A stretch of 64,000 nt of DNA from Myxococcales bacterium 68-20 (lineage in GTDB: Bacteria; Myxococcota_A; Polyangia; Polyangiales; Polyangiaceae). Within the stretch, counting starts at the first letter, position 1. The number at the start of each line of letters is the position of its first letter. Positions 9,199 to 16,308 of the stretch are shown here, in pieces. Made by a program: the position numbers and the translations under genes. Under the pieces are notes generated by a model. That model worked only from the letters and a program-made list of their open reading frames with translations. It searched no databases and had not been told where the DNA came from. The stretch lies in assembly GCA_001899635.1 (NCBI GenBank), contig MKVQ01000040.1, forward strand, positions 65,915 to 129,914, read 5' to 3'.

Positions 9199-9421
9199 GG
9201 CTCTGCTCCTGTGGTGTTTCGGTCGGGCCTCCGCGAGGCGCGCCGGTGCGTCGTCTCTCCTCGCGAAGCAACCGCCATACCCCTCGGCCAGGAGCGTCGT
9301 GCCGAGGTCTCGATCGCGGGAAACGGACCGTCACGCGTGGGGGACTGGCCTCGCGGACGCGCGCGCCTGAGGAAGGTAGGGGCGGTAGGCAGTCGAACAG
9401 CTCGGCTGTAAGCTGACGTTG

Positions 9422-10174
9422 ATGTCTCGACGTCGAATCACGAACCTGGCCTCGATCCTCCCCATCGCGATCCTGCTCGGCGGGAGCATCGCGGCTTGCG
9501 TGGGCGAGGACGCCGCGACGCCGGTCTCGCCTGGCGGTGTCGATGCGGGGCTGCTCGACGATGCCGGAACGAGCGATCCGAGCAGCCTCCCGGACGGCGA
9601 CGCCCCCGGCGCGGAGGACGCCAGCGCTCGTGGCATCGTGTTCGTCACCACCGCGAAGGTCGATGGTGCCTTCGCAGCGGAGGCCAAGTCGCCGATGGCG
9701 GCCGCGGACGCGATCTGCGCGAACGAAGCTGTCGCCGCCGGATTGAGCGGAACCTACGTTGCCTGGCTCTCGTACGAGGACGGCAACGGCACCAAGTTCA
9801 ACGCGGCCGCGCGCATCGGCGAGATGCCGTACTACCTGCCGAAGGGCGACGACGGGAGCGCACCCGTCCTGTTCACGAAGGGGAAGCTCGATCTCGTGAA
9901 GAACGGCTCGAACGTCCCGCTCGATCGGACCGCCACTGGAGCACCGGTCGACTTCGACGAGAACCCGATGGTGGCGTGGGTGTGGACGGGCACCGAGGGC
10001 TCCGGCGAGGTCGCGCTCTCGACGTGCAAGTCCTGGACGAGCGCGTCCGCCAGCGATACCGGCGCCACTGGGAACGCGCGAAAGATCCCCGAGTCCACGA
10101 CGACGGATTGGACCGCCCTCGGCAATCGTCCGTGCGATTCGAAGCGCCGCTTCTACTGCTTCCAGAAACCCTGA
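9422..10174 (+). CDS. Lipoprotein with DUF1554-type domain
   Basis: A 250-residue protein starting with a lipoprotein signal (RRRITNLASILPIAILLGG) and a lipobox ending SIAAC. After a Pro/Asp-rich linker comes a domain beginning GIVFVTTAKVDGAFA, with AADAICANEAVAAGLSGTY and AWLSYEDG, the pattern of DUF1554, a domain frequent in myxobacterial and leptospiral surface proteins. It ends FYCFQKP with paired Cys (RPCDSKRRFYC). Function unknown; likely on the outer membrane. ATG 9422 is taken rather than the TTG just before it. A hairpin follows between this gene and the convergent one. Confidence 0.75.
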   Translation: MSRRRITNLASILPIAILLGGSIAACVGEDAATPVSPGGVDAGLLDDAGTSDPSSLPDGDAPGAEDASARGIVFVTTAKVDGAFAAEAKSPMAAADAICANEAVAAGLSGTYVAWLSYEDGNGTKFNAAARIGEMPYYLPKGDDGSAPVLFTKGKLDLVKNGSNVPLDRTATGAPVDFDENPMVAWVWTGTEGSGEVALSTCKSWTSASASDTGATGNARKIPESTTTDWTALGNRPCDSKRRFYCFQKP

Positions 10175-10233: not shown

Positions 10234-11205
10234 TCATCGGCCTCCCACGTCGATGCGTGTCGGGTTGCGGGCGAAACGCGCCGCGAGCCCGTCGAGCGCC
10301 TTCTGCACCTCCGGCGCGGCGCTCTTCCTTGCTTCGGCGATCAACGCCGGAGTCTGCGGAGCATCGACCACCATCAGCGCGTTCGACGCTGCGCCGCGCG
10401 CCTCGCCGACGTGACGGACGAACGCCTCGACGAGGGCGCGTGCCGCGACCTCGCGGATCTGCGCCTCCTCCCCGCGTTCGGGCATCGTCTTCCATGCCCA
10501 CGCGTTGCCTGCTCGACCGAGCGAGCGAGCGGTCACGCGCGCGGTCGCATCGTCGCTTGCGGTGCGGAGGCGCGCGGCCAGCGCTTCGACGACGTTCGCC
10601 CGGCGACACTCTCCCATGCCAGCGAGGATCGCGCGGGTCCGATCGCCGGAGCCCGACGATGCAAGTGCCGCGAGGAGGCGGGTCGCAGCCTCGTCGTTGC
10701 CGATGCGCGCGATCGCCTCGCTTACCGTGCGCGTCGTCTCCACTTCCTCCGCCGGATCGTCGAGGATCGCCGAGAGGACGGCGAGGCTTCGCTTGTCGTG
10801 AAGCAGCCCGACGGCCTCGATGAGGTCCCGGCGCAGCGCCGGCGCCGCTGCTGCGGGGACGTCGCGCGGGAAGGAGAAGGCCAGCATCTCCAGTGCGGGC
10901 ATCAGCGCGCTCGGACCGAGCTTCGCGACATAGAGCGCGATGGGAGCTTTGCGTGCGCGCGCGCGGGCGTCTGCCTCGGGCGCAAGGGCGACGATCTTGC
11001 TCACCGCTGCGAAGGAGCGGGGCTCGGCCGTGCGCGCTCGAGCGACGTCGCGACGGAGATCGGCTAGCTGCTGCGCGGGCATCCGCGCTGCCGCGACCTG
11101 AATTTCGGGTGCTGCGGCGAGCGCGGTCTCGGGGACCGCCGCACCGCCCAGCGCGAGACAACAGGCCGTGAGGAAAAGGTGCCTCTTCGTCAGCATCGTC
11201 TTCAT
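10234..11205 (-). CDS. Exported HEAT-repeat-like protein, coupled to PAD
   Basis: The 323-residue protein has an export signal (KRHLFLTACCLALGGAAVPE with ALAAAP as a likely cleavage region) followed by alpha-helical HEAT-like repeats rich in Ala and Arg (for example RRDLIEAVGLLHDKRSLAVL and VSEAIARIGNDEAATRLLAAL). Such solenoids usually bind other proteins. Its ATG overlaps the stop of the upstream peptidylarginine deiminase gene by ATGA, with GGGAG inside that gene as ribosome binding site, so the two are translationally coupled. It may be a partner or substrate of the deiminase (inference). Confidence 0.75.
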   Translation of the reverse strand: MKTMLTKRHLFLTACCLALGGAAVPETALAAAPEIQVAAARMPAQQLADLRRDVARARTAEPRSFAAVSKIVALAPEADARARARKAPIALYVAKLGPSALMPALEMLAFSFPRDVPAAAAPALRRDLIEAVGLLHDKRSLAVLSAILDDPAEEVETTRTVSEAIARIGNDEAATRLLAALASSGSGDRTRAILAGMGECRRANVVEALAARLRTASDDATARVTARSLGRAGNAWAWKTMPERGEEAQIREVAARALVEAFVRHVGEARGAASNALMVVDAPQTPALIAEARKSAAPEVQKALDGLAARFARNPTRIDVGGR

Positions 11206-12989
11206 CGTCCGCTCTCCCACCAGCGAGCCTCGGGGACTCGCCGGGTCGTGTTCGAGCCGCAGTGCACTTCACCGAAGATGCGGTGGTATGCGTCCCAGTC
11301 CTCCACCCAGTTGACGTTGATCCCGATGTTGCCGAGCGACTCTTCGAACGCGGCCTTGAAGATGTCCACGCCGTCGATCCGCGGACCATGGGGATCGGGG
11401 GCAGCGAAGCGGGTGTCGGAGAGATAGACGCCGTTCACCATGCCCGGCTGGTAGGCCACCGATTTGCCCGCGTGGTACGTGTGGAGGAACGGGACCTTGA
11501 TGATCTCTTCGTCCGTGAGCCCGATCTCCTTCTTCAGGATCGCGAGCTGTGCGTCGACCTCGGCGGCGGCCTCCGCGCTCGCCTGCATGACCTCGCGATC
11601 GGCGAGGACCTGATCGATCGTCACCTCGGCCGGGCTAGCCTCCCCCGTGTCGACGTCGATCCACGAGTAGCCGATGAACATCGGCACGTTGCCGTGCCCC
11701 GCTCGCGACGCGTTCGCGAGCATCTTCATCGAGAGACGCGCGTCGTTCGCGAGCAGCGCCCAGCCGCGCGGCGACGGCGCCCTCACGAAGGAGATCGTCT
11801 CGTCGACGTGGCCGACGAAGAGCCACGAGGTGTCGATCTCGATCTGCGGCTGCTGGCCTTGAGCGTCGACCATGGTGGCGAACGCCCTGTCCACGTGCCA
11901 CGAGTCCGTCGAGCCACGAAGGACGCGGCCGAACGGATAGAAGACGCCGTCCTTCTTGTATGGCGGCACCGTCTCGAAGTTGCCGAACGAGTTCAGCGTG
12001 TCCATCTCGATCCTGCTGTTCGCGAGGTCGAACTGCTGGACACCGGCGACGTCCTTGCCGCGGAGCGCGAAGACGACGCGTCCGGCTGGTCGGAGCGGCG
12101 TCTCCTTCTTCTTCGGGTTGAAGATGTTCGCCGAGCGATAGTTGACGCGCATCACGTGCTGCGAGTGGCCCGGGCCGGGCATCGTCATGTATGCGGGCTC
12201 GAAGAAGTCCTGAGCCCACTGATCGTTGACGCTGAGCCCTTGCGGCTCGCCGAGCCCCGCCGCCCTGGACGCGGCCGCGAGGTCACCGTGCATCGCCTCC
12301 TGTCCCTGCGTGAGCGTGTTGGGAATCCAGACCGTCTCTGCGGGGAGCAGGTGGTGGTAAGTCATCACCGGGGCGACGCGCATCCGGACGGTGTCCGTGA
12401 AGACGCCCTTCTCCTGTGAGCTGACCGTGAGCTCGACGTCGACGTAGCCGTCCCACTCCGCTGGATCGCGGACGATGTCCTTCGCCTCGATTCCGAGCTC
12501 GATACCGGCCTCGAGCTCCTCGCGAGAGAACTCCGTGTCGTCGGTGATGACCTCGAAGTCCGTCGGTCCCGTGCCGGTCTTCTTGAAGAGCCGCACGAGA
12601 TCTCTCGCCGCCGCGGTCGCGACGACGACGCGGCCGGTAGCGTCTGCGGGCTGTGGCCCCGGGCGCGTCTTCAGGCGCGCGAGGTCACGTGCGTCATCTT
12701 CGCCGTTGACGACGTCGTCCTGCGCATCGTTGCACAGTGCGATCGTGAAATCGCTCGTGCTCGACTCGCAGCGCTGGCTGTCGTCGTCGATGTTGGCGAG
12801 AAAGATCGCGCCGGTCTTGGCATTCCAGGCCGTCTTGTTCGCGTCGGAGTCGTCGTCGAACCGCACCTCTCCGTCGCGGTTCGCATCGGCTCGGAGATCG
12901 GCGAGCGACGGTGCGGGGCGTCCACCGTGATCGGGGCCGCATGCGACCACGCCGATCACGAGGAGCATCGCTTTCGGTATTCGCTCCAT
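11202..12989 (-). CDS. Peptidylarginine deiminase (vertebrate PAD type), lipoprotein
   Basis: The 595-residue protein matches the PAD C-terminal catalytic domain (PF03068). The active-site residues of vertebrate PADs are all present: Asp261 in QWAQDFFEPAYM, His394 and Asp396 in FVGHVDETISFV, and Cys577 in FGEVHCGSNTTR (equivalent to Asp350, His471, Asp473 and Cys645 of PAD4). It should convert protein arginine to citrulline, releasing ammonia. The N-terminus from ATG 12989 is a lipoprotein signal with lipobox GVVAC (Cys17), so it is expected outside the cytoplasm. DANRDGEVRFDDD (35-47) resembles an EF-hand/dockerin calcium loop, fitting the calcium dependence of PADs. It overlaps the HEAT-repeat gene and follows the copper enzyme gene by 228 bases. 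Confidence 0.88.
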   Translation of the reverse strand: MERIPKAMLLVIGVVACGPDHGGRPAPSLADLRADANRDGEVRFDDDSDANKTAWNAKTGAIFLANIDDDSQRCESSTSDFTIALCNDAQDDVVNGEDDARDLARLKTRPGPQPADATGRVVVATAAARDLVRLFKKTGTGPTDFEVITDDTEFSREELEAGIELGIEAKDIVRDPAEWDGYVDVELTVSSQEKGVFTDTVRMRVAPVMTYHHLLPAETVWIPNTLTQGQEAMHGDLAAASRAAGLGEPQGLSVNDQWAQDFFEPAYMTMPGPGHSQHVMRVNYRSANIFNPKKKETPLRPAGRVVFALRGKDVAGVQQFDLANSRIEMDTLNSFGNFETVPPYKKDGVFYPFGRVLRGSTDSWHVDRAFATMVDAQGQQPQIEIDTSWLFVGHVDETISFVRAPSPRGWALLANDARLSMKMLANASRAGHGNVPMFIGYSWIDVDTGEASPAEVTIDQVLADREVMQASAEAAAEVDAQLAILKKEIGLTDEEIIKVPFLHTYHAGKSVAYQPGMVNGVYLSDTRFAAPDPHGPRIDGVDIFKAAFEESLGNIGINVNWVEDWDAYHRIFGEVHCGSNTTRRVPEARWWESGR

Positions 12990-13217
12990 GGGCCCTGGTT
13001 TCAGCAACTTCCACGCCGTGGTGGTGCGCCGGAGCGCGGAGATTCATCGACTCGCGATCCATCTGCTTGTGCTCCATTGCTTGTGGCGAGGCGGAAGGCG
13101 ACGACGCGCATGCCGCCGTGCGTGCGCCGTTCACGCGACGCGGTGGAACAACGCAAGGCAAGGAGCGGCGCCGCCGCTCGCTCGTCGCGCGGTCGATGCG
13201 GTCCGACAGGCAGGGCG

Positions 13218-14612
13218 TCAATCGACGAAGACGAGGATCGCCTGGCACATCTCGTCGAGGCTGTCGCCGCCGAGTCGGATCGCGGGTGGCGTCGAGATGC
13301 GACGTTCGTTCAGCGCACGGGCGAGATTCCGGTTGTCGCGCGTGTTGTCGTACGTGCAGGTGACGCGCAGCGTATCGCCGCCTCGGATGGTGGGTAGCTG
13401 CTCGATCGGGGAGTCGTACGAGTACGTGCGCTGCCAGCTGAAGTCGTACTTCGGCACGCCGAGGAGGCACTCCGATGCGGGCTCTCCGTCGGTGGGGGCT
13501 CTGCGGTCGATCTCGAGCTTCAGACCGACGCCGGCCCAGTGCATGTGTGCGCCGACGGCGGCCAGCCGCGTCTCGGCGATCGACGGCGGGATGCGGAGCT
13601 CCATCGTCTCCGTGTGCCCCTTCGCATTCGACGGGATGAGGAAGCGCGGACCGTCGGCGGGATCGTCGGGGCCGGGAAGCAGCCTCGCCGCGTTGTTCTT
13701 CGAGTCTTCGGCGTTGCCGACGAGGACGAAGCCGGCCACGCGCTGGGGGGCCTGCTTCGACGCTTTCAGCTCGAGGTTCACCCGTCCCGTCGTCGTCTTC
13801 ACAAGCGGGTGGTAGTGCACCTGGACGAGGATGTGGGCTCCCTTCGGGAGCTTGACGGCGGCGTTCTCGCCATACTTGGTCGACGTCCCGCCCGGTGACC
13901 AGGCGAGGAGCAACGTCTGCTCCTCGATCTCGGGGCCGCCGAAGCATGGATAGCTTCCTGCGCGTCCTGCCTTCGCGAACCCTTCGCGCTTCGCGTCGAT
14001 GTAGACGAGCGCGTGATGGACCACCTTCTGGTCTTCGGGGACGACGAGGCTCTCCTCGACCCATGTGTCCGCATCGAGCTTGGGATCGACCGGAAAGCAA
14101 CGGATCTCGTCGTTGGCTCCGCCCTCGACCATGTGCGAGGCTGCGGCCTCGAACGTGTCCGTCTTGCCGGCGAGCCCGGCCGCGGGAACCTCCGTCGTCG
14201 CAGCGACTCGCACGGGGCCGTCGCCGCGGGGCATCCCGTCGTCGACCCAGGCCGCGAACATGTCGATCTGCTCCTGGGTCATGCTCAGGTCGTTCTTGTA
14301 GCCGCGGCTCACCGTGCAGCTCTCGTCGTCGAACGCGCCCCACGGCGGCATCTCGCGCTGTGTCACCTTCTCCTTTGCGAGCGCGCCGAAGGTCTTCAAG
14401 TCTTCGTAGGTCGCAAGCGGGAACGGCGCCATGCCGCCCTCGCGATGGCACGTCACGCACTTCTGCTCGACGAGCTGCTGGATCGAGCCTGTGAATGTCA
14501 CCGATCCGCGACCGGAGCCGGGGCCATCCTTCGACGACGAGCACGACACCGCTACGAGCGCTGCGACGAGCACGGCGATGATGGCTGCGACGATACTGCT
14601 TCGCTTTGCCAT
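13218..14612 (-). CDS. Lipoprotein: cytochrome c domain fused to type-II copper monooxygenase-like domains
   Basis: The 464-residue protein starts with a lipoprotein signal ending AVSC (Cys24). A single haem-binding site, CVTCH (52-56), lies in a small cytochrome-c domain. Two domains of the ascorbate-dependent copper type II monooxygenase family follow (peptidylglycine/dopamine hydroxylase fold). Candidate ligands are His199-His200 (VVHHALVY) and His266 (VQVHYHP) for the CuH site, and His356/His358 (GAHMHWAG) with Met455 (DEMCQAIL) for the CuM site. It probably hydroxylates an unknown substrate in the periplasm, with the haem supplying electrons. ATG 14612 with AGGAAAG upstream is preferred over the slightly earlier start. 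It sits between the molybdoenzyme and the deiminase. Confidence 0.82.
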   Translation of the reverse strand: MAKRSSIVAAIIAVLVAALVAVSCSSSKDGPGSGRGSVTFTGSIQQLVEQKCVTCHREGGMAPFPLATYEDLKTFGALAKEKVTQREMPPWGAFDDESCTVSRGYKNDLSMTQEQIDMFAAWVDDGMPRGDGPVRVAATTEVPAAGLAGKTDTFEAAASHMVEGGANDEIRCFPVDPKLDADTWVEESLVVPEDQKVVHHALVYIDAKREGFAKAGRAGSYPCFGGPEIEEQTLLLAWSPGGTSTKYGENAAVKLPKGAHILVQVHYHPLVKTTTGRVNLELKASKQAPQRVAGFVLVGNAEDSKNNAARLLPGPDDPADGPRFLIPSNAKGHTETMELRIPPSIAETRLAAVGAHMHWAGVGLKLEIDRRAPTDGEPASECLLGVPKYDFSWQRTYSYDSPIEQLPTIRGGDTLRVTCTYDNTRDNRNLARALNERRISTPPAIRLGGDSLDEMCQAILVFVD

Positions 14613-14706
14613 GGCTTTCCTCACCTGAGAACGGCAGTCACTCGATCGCGATGCGTGCCCTGCGAGCGCACCGCGCTGCCCCGCGGTGACGTTCGCTTCA
14701 CGGCAC

Positions 14707-16002
14707 TCAGGGCATCATCGTCGGCGGTAGGACGGCGAGCTCCAGCGGTGCGTGACCGTTGTAGCCGAGCCCTTGCTGGTTCCAGACGACGTCCTCCGGT
14801 CGCGGCTGCGTGTTGCCCGCTGCGTCGCGCGCGCGTGACATCACGCGGTAGCGTCCGGGCTCGACGCGCGGCCACTCGAGCTCGAAGCGCGTCCACATCA
14901 TCGACTCGGGCTTGCCGAGCAGCTGCGCCTGTCGCCATGCGGGGCTCCAGACGGGCCGCCACGTATTCGGGGCGACGAGCCTCTCGATCGAGAGGTCGAC
15001 GCGGTCGATGGCTCCGGCTCCCGACCACGCGCGTCCGCGAAGGACGATGTCGCCGGGCATGAAGGTCGTGTCCTCGTGGAGCTCCATCGCGCTCCTCACG
15101 TGTCCGACCGTAGGCCTGTACGGCTCGGCGATGTCGGGGCCGGAGATCACCTGTCGATCCTGGAACGTCGGGTACGGGAGCTTCTGCTTCGAGGCCTCGA
15201 TGCGGCCGACCCACTTGACGGCGGTGTTGCCGCCCCAGCCGGAGAAGATGACGCGTGCCGGCCAGCCGTGATCCACGGGGAGCGGCTCGCCGTTCATGCG
15301 AAGCGCGAGCAACGTGTCGCTCTCGAGGACCTTCTGGATCGGGATGACCTGCGCATACCGAGCGACCGCGCCGTCGCCGGTCGGGATCACGTCGAGGCCG
15401 GTGAACATCACGTCCGTCGCCCCGTCGAGGCCGGCCGCCTCGAGCAGGTCCTTCAGTCGGACTCCCGTCCACTCGGCTGCGCCTACGGCGCCGAAGTGCC
15501 ATTGCGTGAACCCGATTGGCAACCAGCCTCTGGCCTTCTGCGGAAGCCTCGGAAAGAACGCGCGGCAGTTGGCGCCGCAGTCGATCACTCGTCGCAAGGT
15601 CACCTGCGGCATGGCCTGGAGCTGCGCATAGGTGAAGGTTCGCGGCCGGCCGATCGCGCTGCCGAGGATCTCGAGCTGCCAGGTCTGCGGATCGACGCTC
15701 GGAGGACGCACCCGGCTGTGGACGTAGAAGCGGGCGTTCGGGACGGTGTCCTCGTAGTACTTCGCCTCGCCCCAGATCATCTCCTCCGCACCCGGCTCGC
15801 GGGTGACGAAATAGAGCGACGACGTCGGCTTGATGACGCGGTCGGAAGGCGCGGGCTGGGCGGCTGCGATCACGCCGCTCGTCAGCGTCGCGGCACGCAC
15901 GCCGCCTGGGCGCGGTCGCGGCGCGCATCCGTCGGCGAGCGCGAGCGCGGCAACGCCGGTGGAATAGTGGAGGAACTGCCGGCGCGATCTCGATGAAGAC
16001 AT
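14707..16002 (-). CDS. Sulfite-oxidase-like molybdopterin oxidoreductase, Tat-exported
   Basis: The 431-residue protein begins SRSRRQFLHYSTG, a twin-arginine motif, with a possible lipobox (ADGC). Residues about 95-300 form the oxidoreductase molybdopterin domain with the Mo-ligand Cys at 142 (RVIDCGANCRAFF) and the typical EWTGVRLKDLLE. Residues about 300-425 form the Mo-co dimerisation domain (GRAWSGAGAIDRVDLSIERL). The reaction is oxidation of sulfite or a related oxyanion, but no haem domain is present, so electrons must go to a separate partner, perhaps the cytochrome domain of the downstream gene (inference). ATG 16002 gives the Tat signal; the frame is open upstream without coding character. 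Confidence 0.88.
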   Translation of the reverse strand: MSSSRSRRQFLHYSTGVAALALADGCAPRPRPGGVRAATLTSGVIAAAQPAPSDRVIKPTSSLYFVTREPGAEEMIWGEAKYYEDTVPNARFYVHSRVRPPSVDPQTWQLEILGSAIGRPRTFTYAQLQAMPQVTLRRVIDCGANCRAFFPRLPQKARGWLPIGFTQWHFGAVGAAEWTGVRLKDLLEAAGLDGATDVMFTGLDVIPTGDGAVARYAQVIPIQKVLESDTLLALRMNGEPLPVDHGWPARVIFSGWGGNTAVKWVGRIEASKQKLPYPTFQDRQVISGPDIAEPYRPTVGHVRSAMELHEDTTFMPGDIVLRGRAWSGAGAIDRVDLSIERLVAPNTWRPVWSPAWRQAQLLGKPESMMWTRFELEWPRVEPGRYRVMSRARDAAGNTQPRPEDVVWNQQGLGYNGHAPLELAVLPPTMMP

Positions 16003-16308
16003 GACCCACCTCCGGACGTGCCGGAGGCAGCAGCGTGTGTGCCATGCGCCGATCGATCCGGAGTCGCGGGCGTACGGTCCCGCGTCACTCGACGACCGTG
16101 CGGATCGGATCATGGATCACCGATGCGCTCGTCCGAGTATGGAGCGCATGATCCGGGTATCGTCCTCGCTTCGCCGGCGCCAAAAAAGCCCAGCGACGCT
16201 GCCTACATCGGAGCTATCGCGCCTTGCGCCGAGAATCGAGGTTGTTCGGTCAGCAACGCTTTCTCTGCGTGGCACGGCATCGCGCTTGCTCGAGCTGTCC
16301 CGGCGGCG
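16003..16308. other. Divergent intergenic region with a bulged inverted repeat
   Basis: This 306-base gap separates the leftward molybdoenzyme gene from the rightward kinase operon and must hold both promoters. GAGCGCATGATCCG (16142-16155) can pair with CGGATC plus ATGCGCTC (16106-16111 and 16123-16130), skipping eleven bases, which makes an imperfect inverted repeat. I see no clear -35/-10 pair, no sigma-54 type promoter and no gene. Confidence 0.4.

Follow-up and report, generated by a model that had tools for sequence, protein, structure and literature searches.

A stretch of 64,000 nucleotides from Myxococcales bacterium 68-20 (contig MKVQ01000040.1, positions 65,915 to 129,914; hereafter the window) carries two adjoining genes on its minus strand. 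The first is a predicted lipoprotein of the peptidylarginine deiminase (PAD) family, and the second, directly downstream, is an exported protein built of HEAT repeats. The plus strand opposite the PAD gene (11202-12989) contains an internal stop and holds no frame open throughout. The start codon of the PAD gene is unsure, with ATG at 12989 and TTG at 13007 as the two choices. The features of the pair are as follows.

11202..12989, minus strand: PAD lipoprotein gene, 595 amino acids; open reading frame, Pfam and PDB matches, AlphaFold2 model of the mature part (predicted local distance difference test, pLDDT, 96.1)
12939..12989, minus strand: lipoprotein signal peptide and lipobox, VVA/C17; sequence and lipobox rule
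12411..12896, minus strand: PAD middle domain, approximate limits, including the DANRDG stretch; PF08527 below cut-off, profile and fold alignments to PAD4
12684..12794, minus strand: putative calcium-ligand stretch N66-D102, aligned with PAD4 N153-D179; conservation, with presumed ligand roles
11214..12404, minus strand: PAD catalytic domain (PF03068), residues 196-592, E=5e-91
12207..12209, minus strand: catalytic Asp261 (PAD4 D350), by alignment
11802..11810, minus strand: catalytic His394 and Asp396 (PAD4 H471 and D473), by alignment
11259..11261, minus strand: catalytic Cys577 (PAD4 C645), by alignment
11202..11205, minus strand: ATGA overlap, partner start over PAD stop; sequence
10234..11205, minus strand: exported HEAT-repeat partner, 323 amino acids; HEAT_2 at 25.2 bits, AlphaFold2 model, conservation as a neighbour

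The predicted deiminase and its HEAT-repeat neighbor

A reading of the window made without database searches (the sequence-only reading) had proposed a PAD homologue with a complete active site, and both proposals are borne out. The catalytic domain is a clear match to PF03068 (306 bits, with a cut-off of 25). Searches of the PDB with phmmer return human PAD3 at 1e-44 with PAD1, PAD2, and PAD4 close behind, while a 67-row family profile reaches PAD4 at 3.5e-89 along the middle and catalytic domains. The 27 PDB sequences matched by the protein or its profile are all PADs; NCBIfam gave no match. The AlphaFold2 model of the mature protein superposes on human PAD4 with a Z of 50.7, at 2.0 Å over 508 residues and 27% identity, a comparison at the level of the fold. 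Neither of the outcomes named in the sequence-only reading as refuting it was seen, since PF03068 is matched and the model superposes on PAD4 as a fold. The top structural matches are ligand-bound PAD4 entries tied within 1 Z, and the best PAD4 compared carries a bound inhibitor. The motifs QWAQD, GHVDE, and EVHCG occur in that order, and D261, H394, D396, and C577 within them align with human PAD4 D350, H471, D473, and C645. These four residues are invariant in all 97 rows of the window type, in 14 of 14 Streptomyces rows, and in 38 of 38 rows of a second PAD type described below, counts from which L146, L149, and L150 (degenerate or very divergent) and L096 (too short) were excluded. Conservation of this set makes it most likely that the enzyme is active as a calcium-dependent deiminase.

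The window PAD is of the two-domain type, comprising a middle and a catalytic domain. The middle domain scores 18.9 bits with PF08527 (residues 32-82), below the cut-off of 24.8, and the family profile and the model both align with PAD4 from its middle domain onward. Only about 30 residues precede this domain, and Pfam gave no match there to the N-terminal domain PAD_N (E 1). A stretch near the N-terminus, DANRDGEVRFDDD, had been likened to an EF-hand. That reading is rejected, as Pfam, the alignment, and the PAD4 profile all place the stretch at the opening of the PAD middle domain, and its D35, R38, and G40 are shared by all 25 rows of the alignment, the window PAD among them. Calcium site 6 includes D125 of PAD2, which we take to correspond to window N37. 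A change from D125 to asparagine is reported for actinobacterial and fungal PADs (PMC8826395).

Most other calcium-ligand positions are conserved. Middle-domain positions N66, D68, D70, D88, D99, and D102 are kept in all 97 window-type rows, and D91 is aspartate in 84 of 97. The site 1 positions Q260, E264, and E339 are Gln, Glu, and Glu in 96, 92, and 95 of the 97 rows. Apart from those that PMC8826395 names, the calcium ions assigned to the aligned PAD4 positions are our presumption. D313, aligned with PAD4 D388 and PAD2 D389, is aspartate in 87 of 97 window-type rows; the PAD2 residue has been termed a "calcium switch" (PMC8826395). Of the Streptomyces rows, 11 of 14 have the aspartate as well, at a position given as glycine for Actinobacteria by the same source, and the alignments may differ. 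The equivalent of W347, found in protein-acting PADs, is retained along with the middle domain.

Export of the enzyme is predicted from a short lipoprotein signal, MERIPKAMLLVIGVVA, which precedes the lipobox cysteine; here too the sequence-only reading is supported. Lipobox calls were made with sequence rules of our own. The window signal fails the first rule, which 20 of 32 and 45 of 80 loci passed and which was set aside as too stringent, and passes the relaxed rule that replaced it and that was checked against shuffled N-termini. Under the relaxed rule 87 of 95 window-type rows pass compared with 4% of shuffled N-termini (L065, L082, and L096, cut by contig ends, were dropped), as do 29 of 32 second-type rows compared with 3%. 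The latter count leaves out L117, L118, L131, L133, L141, L146, L149, and L150, and one further row whose middle-domain start was not recognized. By the same rule none of 14 Streptomyces PADs has a lipobox, and their N-termini appear by eye to be mostly Sec-like. Four myxobacterial PADs (L014, L018, L021, and L024) carry one or two Somatomedin B modules (PF01033) between lipobox and enzyme, which fits an exposed position of those PADs.

The HEAT partner begins at an ATG that shares bases with the PAD stop codon (ATGA); the GTG start at 11220 chosen by the open reading frame caller is probably too early. By eye its N-terminus is a Sec-type signal. The window protein falls just under the Pfam HEAT_2 cut-off of 27.7 bits, and 54 of 55 members of its family match this model; only generic HEAT models match the family broadly. 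Its AlphaFold2 model is all-helical (pLDDT 94.9) and resembles the designed alphaRep and other HEAT proteins. The general fold is shared with alphaRep and with the CpcE/CpcF bilin lyases, at about 12-26% identity among the matches listed.

Distribution and conservation of the gene pair

Three PAD genes are present in the genome that contains the window (11.9 Mb in 52 contigs). A survey of 377 Myxococcota genomes found PADs in 94; for the better assemblies alone the figure is 66 of 236, and for control genomes 0 of 14. This distribution rules out an isolated acquisition. The view of the sequence-only reading that bacterial PADs are known mainly from Porphyromonas and cyanobacteria was too narrow, as Table 1 of PMC8826395 reports PADs in 295 bacterial species, with members in Actinobacteria and 69 in Proteobacteria. 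The term "Myxococc" does not occur in the main text of that paper, and the 69 Proteobacteria may include myxobacteria under an older classification. A scan of named genomes confirmed at least 521 PAD stretches, from which 80 loci were kept, mostly of Myxococcota or Deltaproteobacteria, with 14 from Streptomyces and a few others including a metagenome-assembled genome of Holophagae. The nearest relatives among the 80 are from Labilithrix, at 63-64% identity. An origin in phage or plasmid was considered and set aside: no phage matched, and the four plasmid matches are three from Streptomyces and one from Embleya.

When open frames within 8 kb on either side of the PAD were clustered at these 80 loci, a HEAT cluster was found at 64, some overlapping frames included. 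Leaving aside the PAD with its overlapping frames, no other neighbor cluster occurred in more than 17 loci. Across loci L001-L032 and L033-L112, two sets that overlap partly in genomes, a same-strand HEAT partner lies next to the PAD at 93 of 98 non-Streptomyces loci (downstream at 87, upstream at 6). BLAST and a partner profile give the same 93, and neither finds a HEAT neighbor at any of 14 Streptomyces loci. The four-base overlap is present at 83 of the 87 downstream partners. Of the five loci without a partner, three (L010, L071, and L079) end within 1-67 bases of the PAD.

The association was also approached from the partner's side, in 356 Myxococcota genomes taken as G000-G355 of the 377-genome survey. 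The profile of the window-type partner finds 66 places at 70 bits or more, 64 of them next to a same-strand PAD. The remaining two matches are partial, and in their genomes the PAD match begins 71 or 9 bases into its contig. The next-best places score at most 46 bits and look like generic HEAT proteins. No window-type partner was found in the 266 genomes that have no PAD, with about six candidates scored per genome.

Most PADs that have no window-type partner were then examined in 40 stretches (L113-L152), two of them from outside the 356 genomes. Thirty-seven of these loci (all but L146, L149, and L150) hold a second PAD type, which has a shortened middle domain, the residues of calcium site 2 (E351 in 38 of 38 rows, D369 in 36 of 38), and in most cases a lipobox. 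A first clustering found a different exported, same-strand protein at the PAD in 34 of the 40 loci, and at 19 of those 34 the stop codon of the PAD falls within NTGA. A profile adds this second kind of partner at L123, L132, and L141, in each case directly downstream and starting four bases into the PAD end, and a second-kind partner is thus present at all 37 second-type loci. These are also HEAT proteins, 33 of 33 aligned members matching HEAT_2. Comparison of the profiles of the two partner kinds gives a probability of 96% over 213 columns, a likeness that is the resemblance of repeat proteins to one another and not proof of descent.

Taken together, one partner kind or the other is found at 98 of 114 PAD places in the 356 genomes, 96 times downstream and twice upstream. 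For PADs scoring at least 150 bits the figure is 96 of 103, and a 97th (G048, the same as L141) has a weaker partner. Four of the remaining six begin only 2-71 bases into their contigs. In G091 two PADs stand in tandem, and the one without a partner is the first, the second having one; the last (G320:C187) appears to have lost its catalytic residues. The draft genome G320 (82% complete, 5% contaminated) holds both a second-type PAD (L142) and this dead window-type PAD (L146). In PMC8826395 no species is reported with both of the PAD types distinguished there; G320 may be such a species, on the strength of a single draft and assuming that the types described here equal those.

A tree of 102 catalytic domains places the second type on one side of a branch with 97 support in the Shimodaira-Hasegawa-like approximate likelihood ratio test (SH-aLRT). 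The window type joins Streptomyces (SH-aLRT 98), and L028-L031, which are HEAT-paired Myxococcota, lie outside Streptomyces. The tree is a quick one, thinned to 102 rows, unrooted, and supported by SH-aLRT only. Human PAD4 falls on the second-type side, a placement that is unsure because the tree has no cyanobacterial or fungal rows. With the fungal and actinobacterial two-domain type the window PAD shares its tree position, as judged from Streptomyces rows alone, and a linker motif (consensus HHL, YHHLL in the window) that by eye resembles the triple-histidine motif of PMC8826395.

Among known systems, vertebrate PADI1-4 (PF03068/PF08527/PF08526) share with the window PAD the catalytic residues, most site 1 and middle-domain ligand positions, and the fold (Z about 50). 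The window enzyme differs from them in the absence of the N-terminal domain and of calcium site 2, and in its lipoprotein export and HEAT gene. The Streptomyces two-domain PADs group with the window type at 38-40% identity and likewise have no site 2, but they differ in having neither lipobox nor HEAT neighbor. Porphyromonas gingivalis PPAD is extracellular, and it is absent from the PDB sequence matches of the window PAD and its profile. Like the predicted window enzyme it is bacterial, and it forms citrulline, but it is an extended agmatine deiminase without the middle domain (PMC8826395). Late-branching cyanobacterial PADs (clade Ai), compared here by description, belong to the same enzyme family with the same middle and catalytic domains, and differ in having a degenerate N-terminal domain and calcium sites 2 and 4 (PMC8826395). 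The window PAD has neither the site 2 ligands nor the N-terminal domain of this animal and late cyanobacterial type, to which site 2 is described as exclusive (PMC8826395). Experimentally, the closest precedents are the activity of a cyanobacterial PAD on proteins from eukaryotes (PMC8826395) and the conversion of a lasso peptide by a Streptomyces pad gene expressed in another strain (PMC9266682).

A proposed two-gene module for protein deimination

We consider it about two-thirds probable that the locus is a two-gene module consisting of a calcium-dependent, extracytoplasmic protein deiminase and a dedicated HEAT partner. The first gene would provide a lipid-anchored, calcium-dependent, two-domain PAD acting on arginine in proteins or peptides, and the second, translationally coupled to it, an exported HEAT protein acting on or with the PAD. 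Most likely the HEAT protein would bind the PAD, either holding it in check or presenting substrates to it. An exported PAD would meet more calcium than a cytoplasmic one, and its calcium switch may therefore be mostly on. Calcium in the envelope would keep the calcium sites filled, with the switch on most of the time; another control would then be needed. A HEAT protein made together with the enzyme and binding to it may be that natural control, or a substrate adaptor. Several hints point this way. The two proteins are of opposite charge, the PAD acidic in 87 of 87 loci and the HEAT protein basic in 78 of 87. They also appear to diverge jointly, PAD and HEAT distances correlating with an r of 0.80, uncontrolled for the species tree, over the 74 pairs left after removal of near-copies (shuffled maximum 0.23). 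Finally, the PAD-like lipoproteins L146 (G320) and L150 (G229), apparently devoid of catalytic residues, have no HEAT neighbor, which is a further hint of a link between PAD and partner. The in vivo citrullination of a peptide by a Streptomyces relative (PMC9266682) also speaks for the module.

Several observations weigh against this module. The partner's fold points to no function, the structural matches being to generic HEAT proteins only. L038 and L088 keep their catalytic residues yet have no HEAT neighbor within about 8 kb, and L149, a very divergent PAD, has none either. The nearest neighbor by PAD distance is also the nearest by HEAT distance in just 41 of the 74 pairs. Calcium site 2 (PAD4 E351 and D369) is missing from the window PAD, which has F262 and R285 instead, and two site 1 positions vary: the Phe of F335 is shared by 81 of 97 rows, and at F338 most rows have Thr (the commonest, 45 of 97) or Leu. 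Because of these differences calcium control of the window PAD may differ from that of PAD4. As a class the lipoprotein PADs are predicted enzymes. Lastly, second-kind HEAT proteins lie away from a PAD at 18 of 52 places, some of them fragments; ten of the 18 are full-length, belong to one genus code (g112), and have no PAD in the stretches examined. The 34 of 52 places that do adjoin a PAD are not an independent count, since 33 of the 34 partners initially noticed next to PADs in these very genomes went into the profile used (A4). The second-kind HEAT proteins without a nearby PAD include L153-L161 and L164, from the ten g112 genomes, and L162 (G216:C45).

Alternatively, the HEAT protein could be the main substrate of the PAD and not its regulator, with citrullination in the envelope tuning the binding of the HEAT protein to something else. 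The composition of the pair lends this some appeal: arginine has a median of 9.2% in the HEAT protein and 4.3% in the PAD, is higher in the HEAT protein at 86 of 87 loci, and is kept at R83 and R251 in 53 of 55 rows and at R201 in 50 of 55. The window is GC-rich, however, of the ten window genes measured four besides HEAT also contain 9-11% arginine, and the best conserved HEAT arginines may be structural. We regard this alternative as unlikely, although the arginine content and the hints given above do not settle the choice between regulator and substrate.

It is quite unlikely that the enzyme instead serves in tailoring or catabolism, deiminating exported peptides or small guanidino compounds and not folded proteins. 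Such activities do occur among related enzymes. The known Streptomyces relative produces the lasso peptide citrulassin (PMC12971885, PMC9266682), a Streptomyces pad gene placed in another strain converts citrulassin in vivo (PMC9266682), and the PAD fold is common to other enzymes acting on guanidino groups (PMC8826395). Against a tailoring or catabolic role, no neighbor besides HEAT recurs in more than 17 of the 80 loci (smaller clusters are unannotated), and the middle domain and W347 equivalent of protein-acting PADs are kept. Least probable by far is that PAD and HEAT are merely co-expressed envelope proteins without functional contact: dosage alone can preserve operons, the upstream partners at 6 of 93 loci indicate that the usual start-stop overlap is not essential, and second-kind HEAT proteins stand alone in ten genomes of one genus code, but the window-type partner never occurs in a PAD-less genome and each of two PAD lineages has kept a HEAT partner.

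The two-gene module could also be part of a longer history, which we put forward only tentatively. PAD and exported HEAT protein may be an ancient two-part system that citrullinates the envelope or neighboring organisms and predates the split of the two Myxococcota PAD lineages, of which one is on the side of human PAD4 in the tree; the PADs of Streptomyces and of animals would in that case derive from it, having given up the dedicated partner and relying on calcium control instead.

Neighboring genes and significance

Other genes near the pair were considered as possible parts of the system. Upstream of the PAD gene lie a gene resembling copper type II monooxygenases with a cytochrome-c-like stretch (13218-14624, minus strand; both matches below cut-off) and one for a sulfite-oxidase-type molybdopterin protein (14707-16113, minus strand). 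The former has no match beside any other PAD, and the latter has one short match beside other PADs, in a Streptomyces locus; both were rejected as components. On the plus strand, 9419-10174 encodes a putative lipoprotein that weakly matches DUF1554 and LenA-type endostatin-like proteins. Scans for promoters and terminators gave nothing above chance.

The enzyme itself is a member of a known family. A search by title and the start of the abstract, in a literature that mostly excludes subscription journals, found no paper joining PADs with myxobacteria or with HEAT repeats. As far as these searches went, what is new is that across a phylum PADs are as a rule of the lipoprotein form and have a conserved HEAT partner gene. 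The position of most sampled PAD genes of the phylum directly beside a gene for an exported HEAT protein suggests a bacterial protein-modification system. Citrullination has been studied mostly as a modification of animals and of disease. The phylum considered here comprises predatory and soil-dwelling bacteria, and one in four of its sampled genomes has PADs, mostly with lipoprotein signals and an adjacent HEAT gene. If the two proteins work together, they would give citrullination a bacterial home, offer a natural partner protein for study, and provide new evidence on the origin of the animal PADs.

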